Shown here piece by piece: positions 3,502-9,804 of a stretch of 10,957 bases of DNA. The DNA lies in contig JAUYMQ010000554.1 of NCBI GenBank assembly GCA_030698575.1, positions 1-10,957 of the forward strand, given 5' to 3'. The position numbers and the translations under genes are program-made. Origin of the DNA: Deltaproteobacteria bacterium. GTDB taxonomy: Bacteria > JAUYMQ01. The notes under the pieces are model-generated. The model made no database searches. It saw only the letters and a list, made by a program, of their open reading frames with translations, and had not been told where the DNA came from. Numbering within the stretch: the first letter of the stretch is position 1; each line of letters starts with the position of its first letter.

Positions 3502-4686
3502 ATGCGCGCACTCTGGCTTACCAGTTCCTATCCGAGATCGACCGAAGATCATGCCGGAATATTTCTGCACCGCTGGGCCCGCGGGCTCGTGCGGCGCGGG
3601 GTCGCGGTGCGCGTGCTCGCGCCGGGAGCCCCCGACGCGCCGGCGCGGGAAATGCTGGACGGCGTCGAAGTGGTCCGTTTCTCTTACTTCTGGCCCCGGT
3701 GGAAGCAACGCCTGGCCTACGGCCGCGCGGGACTCATGGTCGGGCTCAAGGACAGCCCGCTCGCGCAGGCGCAGCTCCCGACCTTTGCAGCCAGCCTTTT
3801 CTGGAACACCCTGCGGGAGTGCGGTGACGCCGATGCCCTCCACGCCTTCTGGACCCCGATGGGCGCTGTGGCGCTGGCTGTCCGCCAGCTGAGGCGGCGC
3901 CCCGTGGTGCTCTCGCCCCTCGGCACCGACCTGCGATCACTTCCCCGGTCCTTCAACCGCGTCGTTGTGGCGGGGGCGCAGGCCATCGTGGCGGGAGGCG
4001 GTGCCGGCACGGAGGTGCACGATCGGCTGGCGACCATGACGCGCAAGCCGCTCCACCCGATCTTCCTGCCCATCGACGAGGCCGGCCTCGACGCCGCCGA
4101 CGGCGAGGCATTCCGGAACGAGCTGGGGCTCAAGAGAGAGCCGGTGGTCACCTTCATCGCGCGGATGTACGAACAGAAGGATCCCTGGACCTTCCTCGAC
4201 GCCGCGCCGCTCATCCTCGCAAAACGGCCCAGAACGCGCTTTGTGATGGTCGGCGACGGCCCGCTTCTGCCGCTCCTGCGGGAAGGCGCCAAGGCGCGGG
4301 GGATCTGGGACAGCACCTTCCTCACGGGCGCCCGCAACGACGTCGGCGCGATCCTCAAGGCTTCGAACGTCTTCGTCTCGCTCAACCTGCTGGACAACTG
4401 CTGGGCCACAACCATCGCCGAGGCGATGCACCTCGGCGTTCCCTGCGTGGTGAGCGACGGCGGACAGGAGCGAAAACTCTTCCCAGACGGAGACGCAGCC
4501 CTGCTCGTGCCACAGGAGGACCCTGCCGCGCTGGCCGGCGCCGTTCTGCGCATCCTGTCGAAGCGCGATCTCACCGCGCGGCTTGCCGAGGGTGGCCGGG
4601 GGCTTCTGGCGGCTCACCGCAGGCAGGACGATCTCATCGTGGAGGACACCATCAACCTCTATCAGAGCGTGACCAATGGCCATTGA
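3502..4686 (+). CDS. Family 4 glycosyltransferase (GT-B fold)
   Basis: 394 aa, soluble, the usual length for GT4. The N-terminal Rossmann half begins MRALWLTSSYP and has the G-I-F helix segment (residues 19-33) that follows the first strand in this family. The C-terminal nucleotide-sugar half has FIARMYEQKDP (218-228, with Arg221 and Lys226 in donor-phosphate positions), VGDGP (250-254), and IAEAMHLGVPCVVSD (305-319). The retaining-GT4 signature is normally E-x7-E. Here the second Glu is E307 but the first position is Asn299, preceded by Asp298. The start is the ATG at 3502 with GGAAG at 3493-3497. The frame is open much further upstream, across the GT2 gene, but that part is a shadow with biased composition. 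The enzyme probably adds a sugar to a lipid-linked intermediate in the cytoplasm. The last 11 bases overlap the next gene. Donor and acceptor are unknown. Confidence 0.92.
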   Translation: MRALWLTSSYPRSTEDHAGIFLHRWARGLVRRGVAVRVLAPGAPDAPAREMLDGVEVVRFSYFWPRWKQRLAYGRAGLMVGLKDSPLAQAQLPTFAASLFWNTLRECGDADALHAFWTPMGAVALAVRQLRRRPVVLSPLGTDLRSLPRSFNRVVVAGAQAIVAGGGAGTEVHDRLATMTRKPLHPIFLPIDEAGLDAADGEAFRNELGLKREPVVTFIARMYEQKDPWTFLDAAPLILAKRPRTRFVMVGDGPLLPLLREGAKARGIWDSTFLTGARNDVGAILKASNVFVSLNLLDNCWATTIAEAMHLGVPCVVSDGGQERKLFPDGDAALLVPQEDPAALAGAVLRILSKRDLTARLAEGGRGLLAAHRRQDDLIVEDTINLYQSVTNGH

Positions 4687-5632
4687 GGGGAAGAATATCT
4701 TTGTCACGGGCGGCGCCGGCTTCATCGGCAGCAAGTTCGTCGAGCGCGTCATCGAGAAGAATCGGGTCGTGGTGTACGACAGCTTCGCGCGAAACTCGAT
4801 CGAAAGCGGCCCGGCCTGGAATCACCCGAACCTCCGGATCGTAAAGGGCGACATTCTGGACTTCGCGCGCCTCAAGGAAGCGATGCGTGGCACCCAGATT
4901 GTCATCCATCTGGCCGCGGTTGCGGGCATCGACACCGTCATACGCAGCATCACCAACACGATGAAGGTCAACCTCATCGGGACCTACCACGTCCTGGAAT
5001 CGGCGGTGGCGCTGGGCGGGATCGAGCGCCTCGTGGATTTCTCGACGAGCGAGGTCTTCGGGAGCTACGCCTACAAGAGCGAGGAAGGCGACACGACCGC
5101 ACTCGGAAGCGTGGGGGAGGGGCGGTGGACCTACGCCGTCTCCAAGCTCGCAGCCGAGCATCTGGGGCATGCCTACTGCTCGGAGCAAGGATTGCCCCTG
5201 GTAAGTATTCGCCCCTTCAACGTCTACGGCCCGGGCCAGGTCGGAGAGGGCGCAATTCACATTTTCGTTCGCCGCGCGCTGGCGAACGAGCCGATTGAGA
5301 TTCACGGCGACGGCGATCAGATCCGGAGCTGGTGCTACGTGGACGATCTAGTGGACGGCCTGATGGCCTGCGTCACCAACGAGAAGGCCGTGGGGAACGT
5401 CTTCAACATCGGCAACCCCCGGGGAACCATCACCATCTTCGGTCTCGCGGAGACCGTGCTCAGGGTGACCGGAAGCCGGAGCGAGTTGCGGTTCGTTCCG
5501 AAGAACTACGCGGACGTCGAACTGCGAATTCCCAGCATCGAGAAGGCGAAGACGATACTCGGCTTTTGCCCCCAGGTGGATCTCGAAGAGGGCATCCGCC
5601 GCACCGCGGAGTGGTATCGTGCCGGCGCATGA
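4676..5632 (+). CDS. NAD-dependent epimerase/dehydratase, extended SDR family (nucleotide-sugar)
   Basis: 318 aa, the usual size for nucleotide-sugar epimerases and 4,6-dehydratases. The dinucleotide-binding motif is TGGAGFIG (residues 11-18). An Asp at position 35 after the second strand suggests NAD rather than NADP. The catalytic centre is S123-T124-S125-E126 with Y153-A-V-S-K157, followed by RPFNVYGPGQ, which is typical of nucleotide-sugar binding members. The DxF or DE pair after the Ser/Thr, typical of strict 4,6-dehydratases such as RmlB, is not seen: the segment reads STSEVFG. An epimerase, a decarboxylase-like enzyme or a different dehydratase are therefore all possible. It acts in the cytoplasm on a UDP-, GDP- or dTDP-sugar. 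The following aminotransferase suggests a keto-sugar product. The start overlaps the GT4 end by 11 bases and has only a weak ribosome site, suggesting translational coupling. Confidence 0.92.
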   Translation: MAIEGKNIFVTGGAGFIGSKFVERVIEKNRVVVYDSFARNSIESGPAWNHPNLRIVKGDILDFARLKEAMRGTQIVIHLAAVAGIDTVIRSITNTMKVNLIGTYHVLESAVALGGIERLVDFSTSEVFGSYAYKSEEGDTTALGSVGEGRWTYAVSKLAAEHLGHAYCSEQGLPLVSIRPFNVYGPGQVGEGAIHIFVRRALANEPIEIHGDGDQIRSWCYVDDLVDGLMACVTNEKAVGNVFNIGNPRGTITIFGLAETVLRVTGSRSELRFVPKNYADVELRIPSIEKAKTILGFCPQVDLEEGIRRTAEWYRAGA

Positions 5633-6749
5633 CGAAACGGTCCGCCTGGGCCGCCCGATGATCGACATCGATGACATTCAGGCCGTGGCCGCGGTCCTCG
5701 CCACCGGCGATCTTGTGCAGGGCCGGGTGGTCGAGGCTCTCGAGCGAAAACTTTCCGGTTTCCTGGGAGACGTCGAGGTGGTGGCGGTCAGCTCCGGCAC
5801 GGCGGCGCTCCACCTGGCGCTGAAAAGCGTGGGTGTCGGGCCCGGAGACGAAGTCGTGGTGCCGGCCTTCACCTTTCCAGCGACCGCCAACGTCGTCGAG
5901 TGGCTGGGCGCTCGTCCGGTCTTCTGCGACATCGCGCCGGGGAGCTTCAACGCCGGCCCGCGGGAGGTCCTTCGCGTGCTGAGCCGCAGGACCCGCGCAG
6001 TGATGCCGGTGCACGCCTTCGGTGAACCCGCCGACGTGCGCGGCATCGCGCATGCCATCAGGGGCGCCGGTCGGGGAAAGCAGCCGGCAATCATCGAAGA
6101 CGCCGCCTGCGCGCTGGGCGCGGAGCGCGGGGGCCAGGCTGCGGGAACCATCGGCGACGCGGGCTGCTTCTCCTTTCACCCGCGCAAGATCATGACGACA
6201 GGCGAGGGAGGGCTCGTCATCACCCGAAGGGCGCCGCTCGCGCGGCGGATCCGCGCGTTGCGATCCCACGGTCTGGTCCGGGGATCCCGCGGCTTCGATC
6301 TCGTCGAGCCGGGGCTCAACTATCGCATGACCGATTTCCAGGCGGCCCTGGGCCTCGCCCAGCTCTCGAGGCTCGGCACGCTCATCGCCCAGCGGGCGGC
6401 GCTCGCCGAGGCCTACCGCGAGGCGCTTGACGGTCTGCCGGGCCTCACACTTCCGCCCATCCCGCTCGAAGGAGTCGGCGTTGCGCAGTCCTTCGTCGTG
6501 ACGTTCCGCAGCCGCCGGCTGCGCGCGCGGGCCGAGGCGGCGCTGGGGAAGCACGGCATCGAGACAACCTTCGGCACCCACTGCGTGCCCTTGCTCGGCT
6601 GGTACCGGAGGCGCTACGGCCACGAGCGCCGCGATTTTCCAAACGCCGTCGCGGCCCGCGAGCGCACCCTCTCGCTTCCGCTGCACCCTTCCCTCACGGC
6701 GAAGGACCAGGCGCGCGTCATCAGGTGCCTGGAGGAGGCGCTGCTGTGA
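5619..6749 (+). CDS. DegT/DnrJ/EryC1/StrS family sugar aminotransferase (PLP-dependent)
   Basis: 376 aa, normal for the family. These enzymes add an amino group to a nucleotide-linked keto-sugar, usually from glutamate. Visible landmarks are the N-terminal LGRPMID (residues 10-16); SSGTAALHLAL (58-68), which holds the cofactor phosphate; PAFTFPATAN (82-91); EDAACALGA (160-168), with Asp161 facing the pyridine nitrogen; and FSFHPRKIMTTGEGG (184-198), with Lys190 as the expected Schiff-base lysine. The GTG at 5619 is preferred because GGAG at 5608-5611 lies seven bases upstream and because the LxRP element would be lost if translation began at the ATG at 5658. It overlaps the SDR gene by 14 bases. 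With that gene it forms a probable dehydratase or epimerase plus transaminase pair. The regiospecificity (C3 or C4) cannot be decided from the motifs. Confidence 0.94.
   Translation: MPAHDETVRLGRPMIDIDDIQAVAAVLATGDLVQGRVVEALERKLSGFLGDVEVVAVSSGTAALHLALKSVGVGPGDEVVVPAFTFPATANVVEWLGARPVFCDIAPGSFNAGPREVLRVLSRRTRAVMPVHAFGEPADVRGIAHAIRGAGRGKQPAIIEDAACALGAERGGQAAGTIGDAGCFSFHPRKIMTTGEGGLVITRRAPLARRIRALRSHGLVRGSRGFDLVEPGLNYRMTDFQAALGLAQLSRLGTLIAQRAALAEAYREALDGLPGLTLPPIPLEGVGVAQSFVVTFRSRRLRARAEAALGKHGIETTFGTHCVPLLGWYRRRYGHERRDFPNAVAARERTLSLPLHPSLTAKDQARVIRCLEEALL
6731..6738 (+). promoter_or_regulatory. Strong Shine-Dalgarno deciding the GTG start at 6746
   Basis: GGAGGAGG lies inside the 3' end of the aminotransferase gene, seven bases before GTG 6746. 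That GTG shares bases with the aminotransferase stop (GTGA). It favours this start over the in-frame GTG at 6725. Confidence 0.6.
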
Positions 6750-7807
6750 TTCACGCGGAGCCGGGGCCCGGAGGCGTTCATCCCGAGCGGCTTCGTTCGC
6801 TCGTGGCGGAATGGATCGCGCGGGTAGGGCTGGATCTTCGCGACCGCGTGGTGCTCACCGAAGCGGCCACCGGACACTTCGCGCTGACGCCCGTCATTGC
6901 CGCGCAGGCCGGAGCGGATCGCGTGCTGGCCGTTGCAGAGGACTCCCGCTGGGGGAGCGCGCGGGAGGCTTGTGATGCCGTAGGGGCCGCTCGCCGGGCG
7001 CTTGGTGCGCCGGATCGCATCGACTGCCTGGATCGCCTCGATCCGGACACGCTCGCCGTGGCCGACCTGGTGACGAACCTGGGCGCTGTGCGACCCCTCG
7101 ATGCGGCGCGAATCGCCTCGCTGCGCGAGGGGAGCGTGGTCGCGGCGATGTGCGAGGCCTGGGAGATCCGTGAGGGCGACATTGATCAGGGGGCCTGCGC
7201 TCGCCGGGGGGTTCGCGTGGCCGCCGTGAATGAGGATCATCCCCTTGTCGATGTCTTCGAGCACAACGGGCTGCTGGCGGTGAAGATGCTTCAGGAACTC
7301 CAGATCGAGGTGCATGGCACGCGAATCTGCGTCGCGGGGCGCGGGAAGTTCGCCGCTCGCATCGCGCCCGTGCTGGCACGGCTGGGGGCGGACGTGCGAA
7401 GGGCCGAAGCGCTGGAGGGCGAGGCCGCCTTGCAGGCCGTCGAGGGCGCCGACGCGCTTGTCGTGGCCGACTACGACCGGACGGACCTGCTTCTTGGGGA
7501 GGGGGGCGGACTTTCCATCGGGGCGCTGCAGAAGCGCGCGCCGCACGTGGCGGTTGTTCAGTTCGCCGGGTGGATCCGCCCGGGAGAGCTTCGCGCGGCG
7601 GGTCTTCGCGTGTTTCCGGAGGAAGAGATCGGCCCTCGTCGGATGGGCCGGACCATGGCCTACCTGGGCCCCGCGCCGCTTGTGGGGCTCCACTCCGCCG
7701 GCATGAAGGCGGCCGAGATGCTGCTCGGCGGTGATGGGCCGATCGGGCTGGCGCAGATCGTCGTGGGCGGGGGGGATGCCGCTCGGGCTGCGGAGGTGTC
7801 GCGATGA
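6746..7807 (+). CDS. Uncharacterised protein with Rossmann-like (dehydrogenase/SAHH-like) organisation
   Basis: 353 aa, soluble, with no confident family name. The N-terminal half has VVLTEAATGHFALTPVIAA (residues 35-53), AVAEDSRWGSA (62-72) and ADLVTNLGAVRPLD (106-119). The middle has a Glu/Trp-rich EAWEIREGDID (137-147) and NEDHPLVDVF (162-171). From about residue 191 a second alpha/beta unit begins, GTRICVAGRGKFAARI, resembling the glycine-rich strand-turn-helix of an NAD(P)-binding domain, although with GRGKFA rather than a textbook GxGxxG. The order of a split alpha/beta domain and an internal nucleotide-binding unit recalls the hydroxyacid dehydrogenase / S-adenosylhomocysteine hydrolase superfamily, without the diagnostic residues of either. 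I have an impression of similar unnamed proteins in glycan clusters but cannot verify it. Four-base overlaps on both sides (GTGA at 6746, ATGA at 7804) tie it to the aminotransferase and methyltransferase. An oxidoreductase acting on the sugar is only a guess. Confidence 0.8.
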   Translation: MIHAEPGPGGVHPERLRSLVAEWIARVGLDLRDRVVLTEAATGHFALTPVIAAQAGADRVLAVAEDSRWGSAREACDAVGAARRALGAPDRIDCLDRLDPDTLAVADLVTNLGAVRPLDAARIASLREGSVVAAMCEAWEIREGDIDQGACARRGVRVAAVNEDHPLVDVFEHNGLLAVKMLQELQIEVHGTRICVAGRGKFAARIAPVLARLGADVRRAEALEGEAALQAVEGADALVVADYDRTDLLLGEGGGLSIGALQKRAPHVAVVQFAGWIRPGELRAAGLRVFPEEEIGPRRMGRTMAYLGPAPLVGLHSAGMKAAEMLLGGDGPIGLAQIVVGGGDAARAAEVSR

Positions 7808-8631
7808 TCCCGCTCCGGGAAGACGCGTCCTGCCCCCTCTGTGGGCGGTTCAGCCACCCGTCGGTCGTCGAGCCGGTCGTCGAAAAAGATCCCTATGCCA
7901 TCGTGCGGTGCGCTGTGTGCGGCATCTGCTTCGCGAGCCCGCGCCCGACACCGGCCGCGATGGCGGAGTTCTACGAGCGATACTTCGCCGAGGACCCGCT
8001 GGCCGGCTACGAGCACTACCGGGAAGGAGAGGCGTGGCGGGCCCGGGTGGCGAGGCACCGTCTCGCCCTGCTCGGGCGTTTCATCGCCCCGGGGCGCATC
8101 CTCGATCACGGCTGCGCGACGGGGGTCTTTCTCGATGAGGCAGTGAACGCTGGATGGGAAGCATACGGCGTCGAACCCTCCTCGGCGGCGCGCTCCCTCA
8201 TACTGCGGCGGGCCCCCTACGTGAAGGTGCTTCCGCCGGAGGATCTGGCGACGCTTCCGGACGGCATGTTCGATGCGGTCACGATGTTCGACAACTTCTG
8301 CTACCTGCACGACCCGATCGGCGCGTTGCGGGAGTTCGGGCGGTTGCTGCGGCCCGGCGGGGTTCTCCTGTCCATCGGGGCCCTCGATCACGGCCCGGCT
8401 CACCGCGCACCGGAGCCCGGGATCACGCACACGTTCTACTACTCTCCCCGTTCCGTGGCGCGGCTTTGCCGCGCGGCGGGGCTCCGGGTGCTCATGAACA
8501 GGACGATCGTCAAGAACGCGAACAACCCGGGTAAGCACCCCTTCGCCTGGCTCTTCCAGGAGGTTCCCTGGGTACGCAACCTGTTTTTCCGGCAACACTG
8601 TTTCGTCGCAACGCCAGAGGGCGGAGCCTGA
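7804..8631 (+). CDS. Class I SAM-dependent methyltransferase with N-terminal zinc-ribbon-like segment
   Basis: 275 aa. The N-terminus carries two CxxC pairs (Cys10/Cys13 and Cys36/Cys39), as in a zinc ribbon, followed by FASPRPTPAAMAEFY, a linker common in Methyltransf_23-type proteins of glycan clusters. The SAM domain starts at about residue 86. Motif I is ILDHGCATGVFL (99-110), with an acidic residue in GVEPS (122-126) to hold the ribose, FDAVTMFDNFCYLHDP as the motif II region, and LLRPGGVLL as the post-II loop. It probably methylates a sugar or a related small molecule in the cytoplasm; O-, N- or C-methylation cannot be told apart. NovU/TylCIII-type sugar C-methyltransferases also begin with a zinc-binding segment but are longer, with an extra C-terminal domain not present here. 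The ATG at 7804 has GGAGG at 7792-7796 and overlaps the preceding stop (ATGA). Confidence 0.9.
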   Translation: MIPLREDASCPLCGRFSHPSVVEPVVEKDPYAIVRCAVCGICFASPRPTPAAMAEFYERYFAEDPLAGYEHYREGEAWRARVARHRLALLGRFIAPGRILDHGCATGVFLDEAVNAGWEAYGVEPSSAARSLILRRAPYVKVLPPEDLATLPDGMFDAVTMFDNFCYLHDPIGALREFGRLLRPGGVLLSIGALDHGPAHRAPEPGITHTFYYSPRSVARLCRAAGLRVLMNRTIVKNANNPGKHPFAWLFQEVPWVRNLFFRQHCFVATPEGGA

Positions 8632-8667: not shown

Positions 8668-9804
8668 ATGTCCAGCGTATTGAGCAAGCTCAGGATGCCG
8701 AACTTCCACCGCGCCCGTTACCTGACGCGCGCGCTCTGGAACAAGAACAAGCTCGACGCGCTGCGGCTCATCGAGCTGCGCACTCTCAAGCGCCACTCGC
8801 GCCTGCGCTACTACAACTTCCCTCCCTCCGTGGTCCAGATCGAGATCACGAATCGCTGCAACATGCGTTGCAAGTGGTGCTACCGCGAGAATCTGGAAAT
8901 GCTCGGCAAGGTGGGCGACATGCCCCTCGAGCCTCTCATGAAACTGATTGAAGGCTGCCGCGGAGTTCGCCTTCTGCATCTGTTCGGCGAGGGTGAGCCG
9001 CTCATGTACCCCGGGATCATCGAAGTGATCCGGCACGCGGCGAAGTACGTGAAGTGTCCCTCCGTCACCACGAACGGAACCATGCTCCGACATCTCGGCA
9101 AAGAGCTGGCGGAGTCGGGCCTGGGCGAGCTGGCGGTGAGCATCGACGGGACCGATCCGGAGACCTTCCGGGAGATTCGCAAGGTCGAGCTCTCGCGGAT
9201 CCTCGACAACATGAGCTACTTCGCCTCGATTTCGGATATTCCCATCCGGATCAACGCCGTCGTGAGCAAGGACAATCTCGACTCGCTCCGCAACATGCCG
9301 GAACTCGCCCGGAGCATCGGAAACGTGAAGGAGCTGCACTTCCAGGGGCTCCACGAGAGCGAGGCCAGCAAGCAGCACGGCTTCCTCAAACTCAGCGTCG
9401 AAAACCCCGACGTGAAGTCGTTCATGGACGAGGTCCGGGAGAAGTGCCGGCGGCTCGGCCTCGAGACCAACGTCGACAATCTCGAGTACTTCCTCGAACG
9501 CCCGACTCCCTGCATGAGCCCCTTCGCGGGAATCGTCTACATCAACAAGGACGGTTACCTGGCCCCGTGCTGCAACTACGCGCACCGCTCGCTGGCCAAC
9601 GCCTTCGAGCTGGGGCTCCAGGGAGCGCTGGAATCGCAAAACGCCCGCGAGTTCCGGAAGCTCATGCTCGACGAGGACTATCCCGATCATTGCCAGAGCT
9701 GGTGCAGCATGGTGTCCAAGCCTCAGCCCGGTCCCTCGCGCGGAAACATGCCGGGCCACGCGGGGCAGCCGGGGCCGACCGGGGCCGGCGCCGCAGGAGG
9801 GTGA
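8668..9804 (+). CDS. Radical SAM enzyme with SPASM-like C-terminal cysteines
   Basis: 378 aa. The radical SAM 4Fe-4S motif CxxxCxxC is Cys64, Cys68 and Cys71, within EITNRCNMRCKWCYREN. A GEGEPL segment at 107-112 matches the GGEP-type SAM-binding motif, followed by VTTNGT and AVSIDGTDPETF as in MoaA/SPASM-type barrels. The C-terminal part has Cys282, the pair Cys301-Cys302, Cys342 and Cys346, set around INKDGYLAPCC. This is the pattern of a SPASM or twitch domain that binds auxiliary Fe-S clusters. The first 50 residues are basic and helical. The last 25 residues are a Pro/Gly-rich low-complexity tail. Family members modify peptides or oxidise/epimerise sugars and aminocyclitols (BtrN type). 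Sugar modification fits this cluster but is inferred. The ATG at 8668 has AGAGG at 8654-8658. The gene ends one base before the flippase GTG. Confidence 0.92.
   Translation: MSSVLSKLRMPNFHRARYLTRALWNKNKLDALRLIELRTLKRHSRLRYYNFPPSVVQIEITNRCNMRCKWCYRENLEMLGKVGDMPLEPLMKLIEGCRGVRLLHLFGEGEPLMYPGIIEVIRHAAKYVKCPSVTTNGTMLRHLGKELAESGLGELAVSIDGTDPETFREIRKVELSRILDNMSYFASISDIPIRINAVVSKDNLDSLRNMPELARSIGNVKELHFQGLHESEASKQHGFLKLSVENPDVKSFMDEVREKCRRLGLETNVDNLEYFLERPTPCMSPFAGIVYINKDGYLAPCCNYAHRSLANAFELGLQGALESQNAREFRKLMLDEDYPDHCQSWCSMVSKPQPGPSRGNMPGHAGQPGPTGAGAAGG
9795..9800 (+). promoter_or_regulatory. Consensus Shine-Dalgarno for the flippase-like gene
   Basis: AGGAGG lies five bases before the GTG at 9806 and inside the last codons of the radical SAM gene. 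It selects 9806 over the out-of-frame GTG at 9801. Confidence 0.6.

Follow-up and report, generated by a model that had tools for sequence, protein, structure and literature searches.

Dipicolinate synthase A (DpsA/SpoVFA; PDB 2rir and 3d4o), the D-2-hydroxyacid dehydrogenases (2-HADHs, such as PGDH, D-LDH and PdxB) and S-adenosylhomocysteine hydrolase (SAHH) are the described systems that come closest in fold to the protein of 353 aa studied here. In the 2-HADHs the catalytic Arg, Glu and His lie largely in the NAD-binding half, SAHH, a hydrolase, uses NAD, and Rossmann enzymes in general keep their active sites at strand ends. In terms of pathway, the genes found around this protein family resemble a WbpB/D/E-type 3-amino sugar-nucleotide cassette together with an ArnB/PseC-like amination, and we know of no protein of the family in the described WbpB/D/E-type pathway.

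The window, i.e. the whole stretch of 10,957 nucleotides of deltaproteobacterial DNA that was analysed, encodes on its + strand a TPR protein, a membrane glycosyltransferase-like protein and two glycosyltransferases before an SDR, and from the SDR on a DegT aminotransferase, the 353 aa protein, a methyltransferase, a radical SAM/SPASM protein and a flippase-like membrane protein. The genes at the centre of this analysis are the following:

4676..5632, + strand: SDR, nucleotide-sugar epimerase/dehydratase/decarboxylase-like, with the motif STSEVFG (PDB 8vr2, 396 bits, 314 residues)
5619..6749, + strand: DegT/DnrJ/EryC1/StrS aminotransferase, PseC/ArnB-like, directly upstream of the 353 aa protein and a conserved partner of its family
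6746..7807, + strand: 353 aa protein of an unnamed family with two Rossmann domains, from the ORF, its homologues and the predicted fold
7804..8631, + strand: class I methyltransferase (Methyltransf_23), a neighbour in the window only

The ORF at 6746-7807 has a GTG start, is open throughout and overlaps by four bases both the DegT gene (5619-6749) and the methyltransferase gene (7804-8631); these overlaps, the ORF itself and all five motifs quoted in an earlier, sequence-only reading were confirmed in the sequence. Seven independent full-length relatives with 35-40% identity indicate that the ORF encodes a real protein. They come from Chloroflexota (a Chloroflexi MAG, L001, and a second genome, G188/L027), from Pseudomonadota (a Burkholderiales MAG, L002, a Paracoccus plasmid, L005, and the genomes G533/L021 and G863/L029) and from one planctomycete plasmid (Isosphaeraceae, L004/L035). 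A full-length match was present in 2 of 400 Chloroflexota and 3 of 398 Pseudomonadota genomes, query genomes counted, which is about 0.5-0.8% of those sampled; hence the family is rare and scattered. Among 98 genomes, of which the 97 others are related to the window's genome at the level of the domain only, the homologue search returned the window's own protein only, and no meaningful relative from viruses came out of the search of BFVD. A viral contig of 8 kb from IMG/VR carries the first part of a homologue at its very end (L032, 4971-5318), where the contig is cut; it adjoins small ORFs, and one neighbour matches two PHROGs of unknown function.

The same reading had called the protein unrecognised and without the diagnostic residues of any dehydrogenase or SAHH that it could name, and the family models agree. 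Indeed, no Pfam model matches the 353 aa protein even at an E value of 1, the sequence search of the PDB assigned no family, and the best NCBIfam model, that of dipicolinate synthase A (NF006162), is reached with 16.2 bits and an E value of 0.0049, far below its cut-off of 261 bits. The window protein matches neither the 2-HADH models PF00389 and PF02826, although one of the eight family members reaches E 2.4e-4 with PF02826, nor the AdoHcyase family models, for which the best member (E 0.0023) is also the only one. Furthermore, no dipicolinate synthase A was found above the cut-off in the window's own genome.

A full-chain model was computed with AlphaFold2 from three alignment rows (mean pLDDT 76.8, pTM 0.76, a moderate confidence) and shows two Rossmann-type domains, which bears out the Rossmann-type fold proposed from the sequence. 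The Foldseek search against the PDB gave dipicolinate synthase A first (E 1.4e-9), then D-2-hydroxyacid dehydrogenases and SAH hydrolases. With VIA-align, DpsA is the best whole-chain match (Z 16.8, rmsd 4.6 over 260 residues), followed by SAHH (Z 16.1 over 303 residues) and phosphoglycerate dehydrogenase (Z 15.5), the 2-HADHs having the two-domain architecture in common with the 353 aa protein at a Z of about 15. The two-Rossmann-domain topology of DpsA is likewise matched, on a model of moderate confidence. The protein also matches weakly the HMM of the DpsA NAD domain, and in profile comparisons the family aligns with a PdxB (residues 144-241) and with a DpsA-like protein (residues 181-288). 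The likeness to DpsA and the 2-HADHs is thus supported by the predicted fold together with a weak sequence signal. However, identity to DpsA is 13-14% and the genomic setting differs: the flavoprotein subunit DpsB is not adjacent in the window, where the neighbours are the DegT aminotransferase and the methyltransferase. SAHH differs in length, with 400+ residues compared to about 350 in the family, and the family has a glycan context.

Taken alone, the N-terminal domain (mean pLDDT 83) is nearest to NAD-type Rossmann domains, namely those of DpsA (residues 151-271, Z 11.4), shikimate dehydrogenase and alanine dehydrogenase. This bears on a reading as a SAM-dependent methyltransferase-like protein working with the neighbouring methyltransferase, for which the match to aKMT among the N-domain folds (Z 9.2) and a phmmer match to PRMT6 (E 0.39, residues 30-94) could be cited. 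No methyltransferase Pfam model matches the protein. We regard this reading as very improbable, given that the NAD-type domains come first and that the family has no conserved methyltransferase neighbour. The substrate shared with the methyltransferase, as suggested by the sequence-only reading, was not borne out either: the Methyltransf_23 gene follows the protein in the window only, and a partnership with it was dropped because the gene does not recur beside the homologues at the other loci. This methyltransferase (7804-8631) carries an N-terminal CPLCG...CAVC stretch that is zinc-ribbon-like.

The conserved parts of the 353 aa protein are located as follows:

6773..7264, + strand: N-terminal Rossmann domain, residues 10-173, with all invariant polar residues (conservation and fold)
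6857..6892, + strand: motif TEAATGHFALTP, residues 38-49, in the loop after strand 35-39; T38-G43 and T48 invariant
7073..7096, + strand: TNLGAVRP, residues 110-117; T110, N111, G113, R116 and P117 invariant
7154..7186, + strand: EAWEIREGDID, residues 137-147; E137, W139, E140, R142, D145 and D147 invariant
7229..7258, + strand: NEDHPLVDVF, residues 162-171; E163 and H165 invariant
7337..7351, + strand: GRGKF, degenerate NAD-type glycine motif of the C-terminal Rossmann domain (alignment and model)
7688..7702, + strand: LHSAG, residues 315-319; His in subfamily A, Gln in subfamily B

The family alignment, which like all family comparisons here comprises eight sequences only, has 44 invariant columns. 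The residues invariant throughout the family fall within TEAATG, TNxGxxRP, ExWExRxxDxD and [N/D]ExH; hence four of the five motifs noticed earlier as conserved-looking do hold invariant residues, while the fifth, EDSRWGS, is only partially kept. Residues 28-175 contain 32 of the 44 invariant positions, sixteen of them polar or aromatic, whereas the twelve in residues 176-330 are only F, L, G, A, P and M, with none from the polar/aromatic set. Unlike in DpsA and the 2-HADHs, the conserved motifs and the invariant polar residues therefore sit in the N-domain. Eleven of the sixteen lie at a strand end or within seven residues after it, positions that make up 48 of the 148 in this range, and the sixteen residues, grouped in a small number of N-domain motifs, have the appearance of an active site.

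The C-domain divides the family in two. Subfamily A (the window, L001, L002 and L027) has GxGxF and LHxAG, and subfamily B (L004, L005, L021 and L029) has CDNDF, CDNPF or SDNPF and LQxGG, so that the GxGxxG NAD motif of the 2-HADHs is replaced by GxGxF in four of the eight members and by these glycine-poor forms in four. Between the subfamilies identity is 48% in the N-domain against 28% in the C-domain. The glycine-rich strand-turn-helix reported near the middle of the protein is indeed present at residues 193-212 (GRGKF at 198-202), but its motif is found in half of the family only. As regards the Arg-Glu-His triad of the 2-HADHs, the alignment shows no invariant Arg, Glu or His in the C-domain, and H316 is Gln in half of the members. 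Given that the invariant polar residues are all in the N-domain and that the glycine-rich NAD motif is lost in half, the family is a standard member of none of DpsA, SAHH and the D-2-hydroxyacid dehydrogenases. The loss also means that NAD-dependent redox chemistry may not be the common function, and it disfavours a simple dehydrogenase common to all members. A non-redox enzyme of the same pathway (lyase, epimerase or hydrolase), using the invariant acids and His of the N-domain with the C-domain as a lid, would agree with a dispensable NAD motif and with the concentration of Glu, Asp, Arg, Asn, His and Trp in the N-domain motifs. It is nevertheless an unlikely solution, since both domains resemble dinucleotide-binding Rossmann domains and the nearest hydrolase by fold, SAHH, is itself NAD-using.

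The neighbourhoods were surveyed by tblastn of all loci with the genes of the window and of L027. In agreement with the sequence-only reading, the homologues are in glycan loci together with DegT and SDR genes. All eight carriers, genomes or plasmids, encode the SDR-DegT pair and in addition a MocA-type oxidoreductase, a hexapeptide acyltransferase and a cassette DegT; these three genes form a cassette resembling UDP-GlcNAc(A) 3-dehydrogenase, 3-aminotransferase and acyltransferase. In seven of the eight the cassette and the SDR-DegT pair are at the same locus as the family protein, at distances that range from direct adjacency to about 35 kb; the exception is the window's genome, which has the cassette on a different contig (C569). 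The MocA protein of this cassette has UDP-GlcNAc 3-dehydrogenase as best match, under the cut-off of that model. Such a cassette is not rare by itself: in control searches a WbpD-like acyltransferase was present in 70 of 299 Pseudomonadota (23%) and 139 of 301 Chloroflexota (46%) genomes sampled, and of the genomes with such a gene only a small fraction encodes the 353 aa family.

The second DegT, that of the SDR-DegT pair, lies directly upstream of the family protein in five of the eight carriers (the window, L001, L027, the Isosphaeraceae plasmid and Paracoccus), and in four of these five the two genes overlap by four bases; in the remaining three carriers it is 7 to 26 kb away. Its identity matrix also correlates best with that of the 353 aa family (r 0.87, permutation p 0.00025, partly inflated by the shared ancestry of the two closest genomes), compared to 0.75 for the cassette DegT and 0.62 for the SDR. 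This adjacency and co-variation, together with the degenerate cofactor motif, would be expected of a non-catalytic or regulatory DegT partner (a subunit, chaperone or substrate channel), i.e. a Rossmann pseudo-enzyme. We find this improbable in view of the three genomes where the DegT is distant and of the active-site-like clustering of invariant N-domain residues just after strand ends.

Around this core the loci vary. The best solved relative of the window's SDR (4676-5632), a very close one, is PDB 8vr2, and a literature search on the pathway and on entries 8vr2, 8vr3, 8vr5, 9bgp and 9bgr returned no paper on those entries. The SDR motif is STSEVFG in the window and SSSEAYG, SSSEVYG or SSASVYG elsewhere; with at least three types of SDR across the loci, a single common substrate is uncertain. 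On the Paracoccus plasmid the SDR (L005, 6752-7745) seems to be split over two frames, possibly by a frameshift. In the window, the radical SAM/SPASM protein of the polysaccharide locus (8668-9804) is well under the curated NCBIfam cut-offs shown.

Candidate genes for the capping of an amino group are not the same at all loci. A formyltransferase adjoins the homologue on the Isosphaeraceae plasmid and in G533 and is nearby in Paracoccus, L027 has an LpxD-like hexapeptide protein and KAS III, L029 has GNAT and FkbH-like proteins, and L001 has phosphosulfolactate synthase (ComA), a sulfopyruvate decarboxylase-like protein and a PylC-like (ATP-grasp) protein. The first two of these L001 genes (6695-8628) are directly downstream of the homologue, and such a pair in a bacterial polysaccharide locus suggests a sulfonate substituent. 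Given the varying cap genes, methyltransferase and SDR type, the constant core consists of the cassette, the second DegT and the 353 aa protein, along with an SDR whose type changes. Acid-making neighbours such as ComA with the sulfopyruvate decarboxylase-like protein in L001 and the FkbH-like protein in L029, along with the whole-chain 2-HADH/DpsA fold, could be taken to mean that the protein is a genuine 2-hydroxyacid or imino-acid dehydrogenase, dependent on NAD(P), whose role is to supply a small acid, e.g. for an N-acyl or amide substituent, and not to act on the sugar. This also appears improbable, because these genes are not common between loci, the C-domain has no invariant Arg, Glu or His, H316 is Gln in half of the members and the glycine motif is likewise lost in half.

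From what was computed, namely the predicted fold, the conserved N-domain residues and the co-location and co-variation with the DegT, we infer a substrate, an order of steps and a chemistry. The 353 aa protein probably acts on a nucleotide-linked amino sugar, in a step that has not been described before, and it is possible, as a tentative assignment, that it is a tailoring enzyme of that pathway acting before the variable N-capping. The MocA-type 3-dehydrogenase, the cassette DegT and the hexapeptide acyltransferase would build a 3-acylamino sugar nucleotide, on which the SDR would make a keto group, and the second, PseC/ArnB-like DegT would aminate this keto product. The cleft that separates the two Rossmann domains of the 353 aa protein may then take up the resulting UDP-amino sugar, which the protein would change before a locus-specific N-capping enzyme of formyl-, acyl-, GNAT or ATP-grasp type would finish the sugar nucleotide. 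Our guess for the change is a redox or a stereochemical one with a transient hydride, the C-domain perhaps binding a dinucleotide in those members whose glycine motif is retained, i.e. in subfamily A.

The O-antigen of Psychrobacter cryohalolentis carries 2,3,4-triacetamido-2,3,4-trideoxy-L-arabinose (PMC8040287). By analogy, the SDR/DegT pair might make a triamino pentose; this is a lead only, since the branch is not covered by that paper and the loci differ in the catalytic motif of their SDR.

The idea of an undescribed step put forward in the sequence-only reading thus finds partial support, as far as the pathway is concerned, in the amino-sugar gene context, and catalysis of a new step is plausible. 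The 353 aa protein belongs to a new, uncharacterised family on a known fold, not to a new kind of system. It may represent, at somewhat less than even chances, a new enzyme family whose scaffold is like that of the 2-HADHs and DpsA and whose active site is built on the N-terminal Rossmann domain, converting a UDP-linked di- or triamino sugar in an undescribed way, one branch of which gave up the NAD motif. Bacterial surface glycans contain many amino sugars whose biosynthesis is unfinished, and a family that is tied to a defined sugar-nucleotide gene set and has a known fold, but not the catalytic set usual for it, indicates that a step is missing there; it would also be an example of a remodelled dehydrogenase scaffold.
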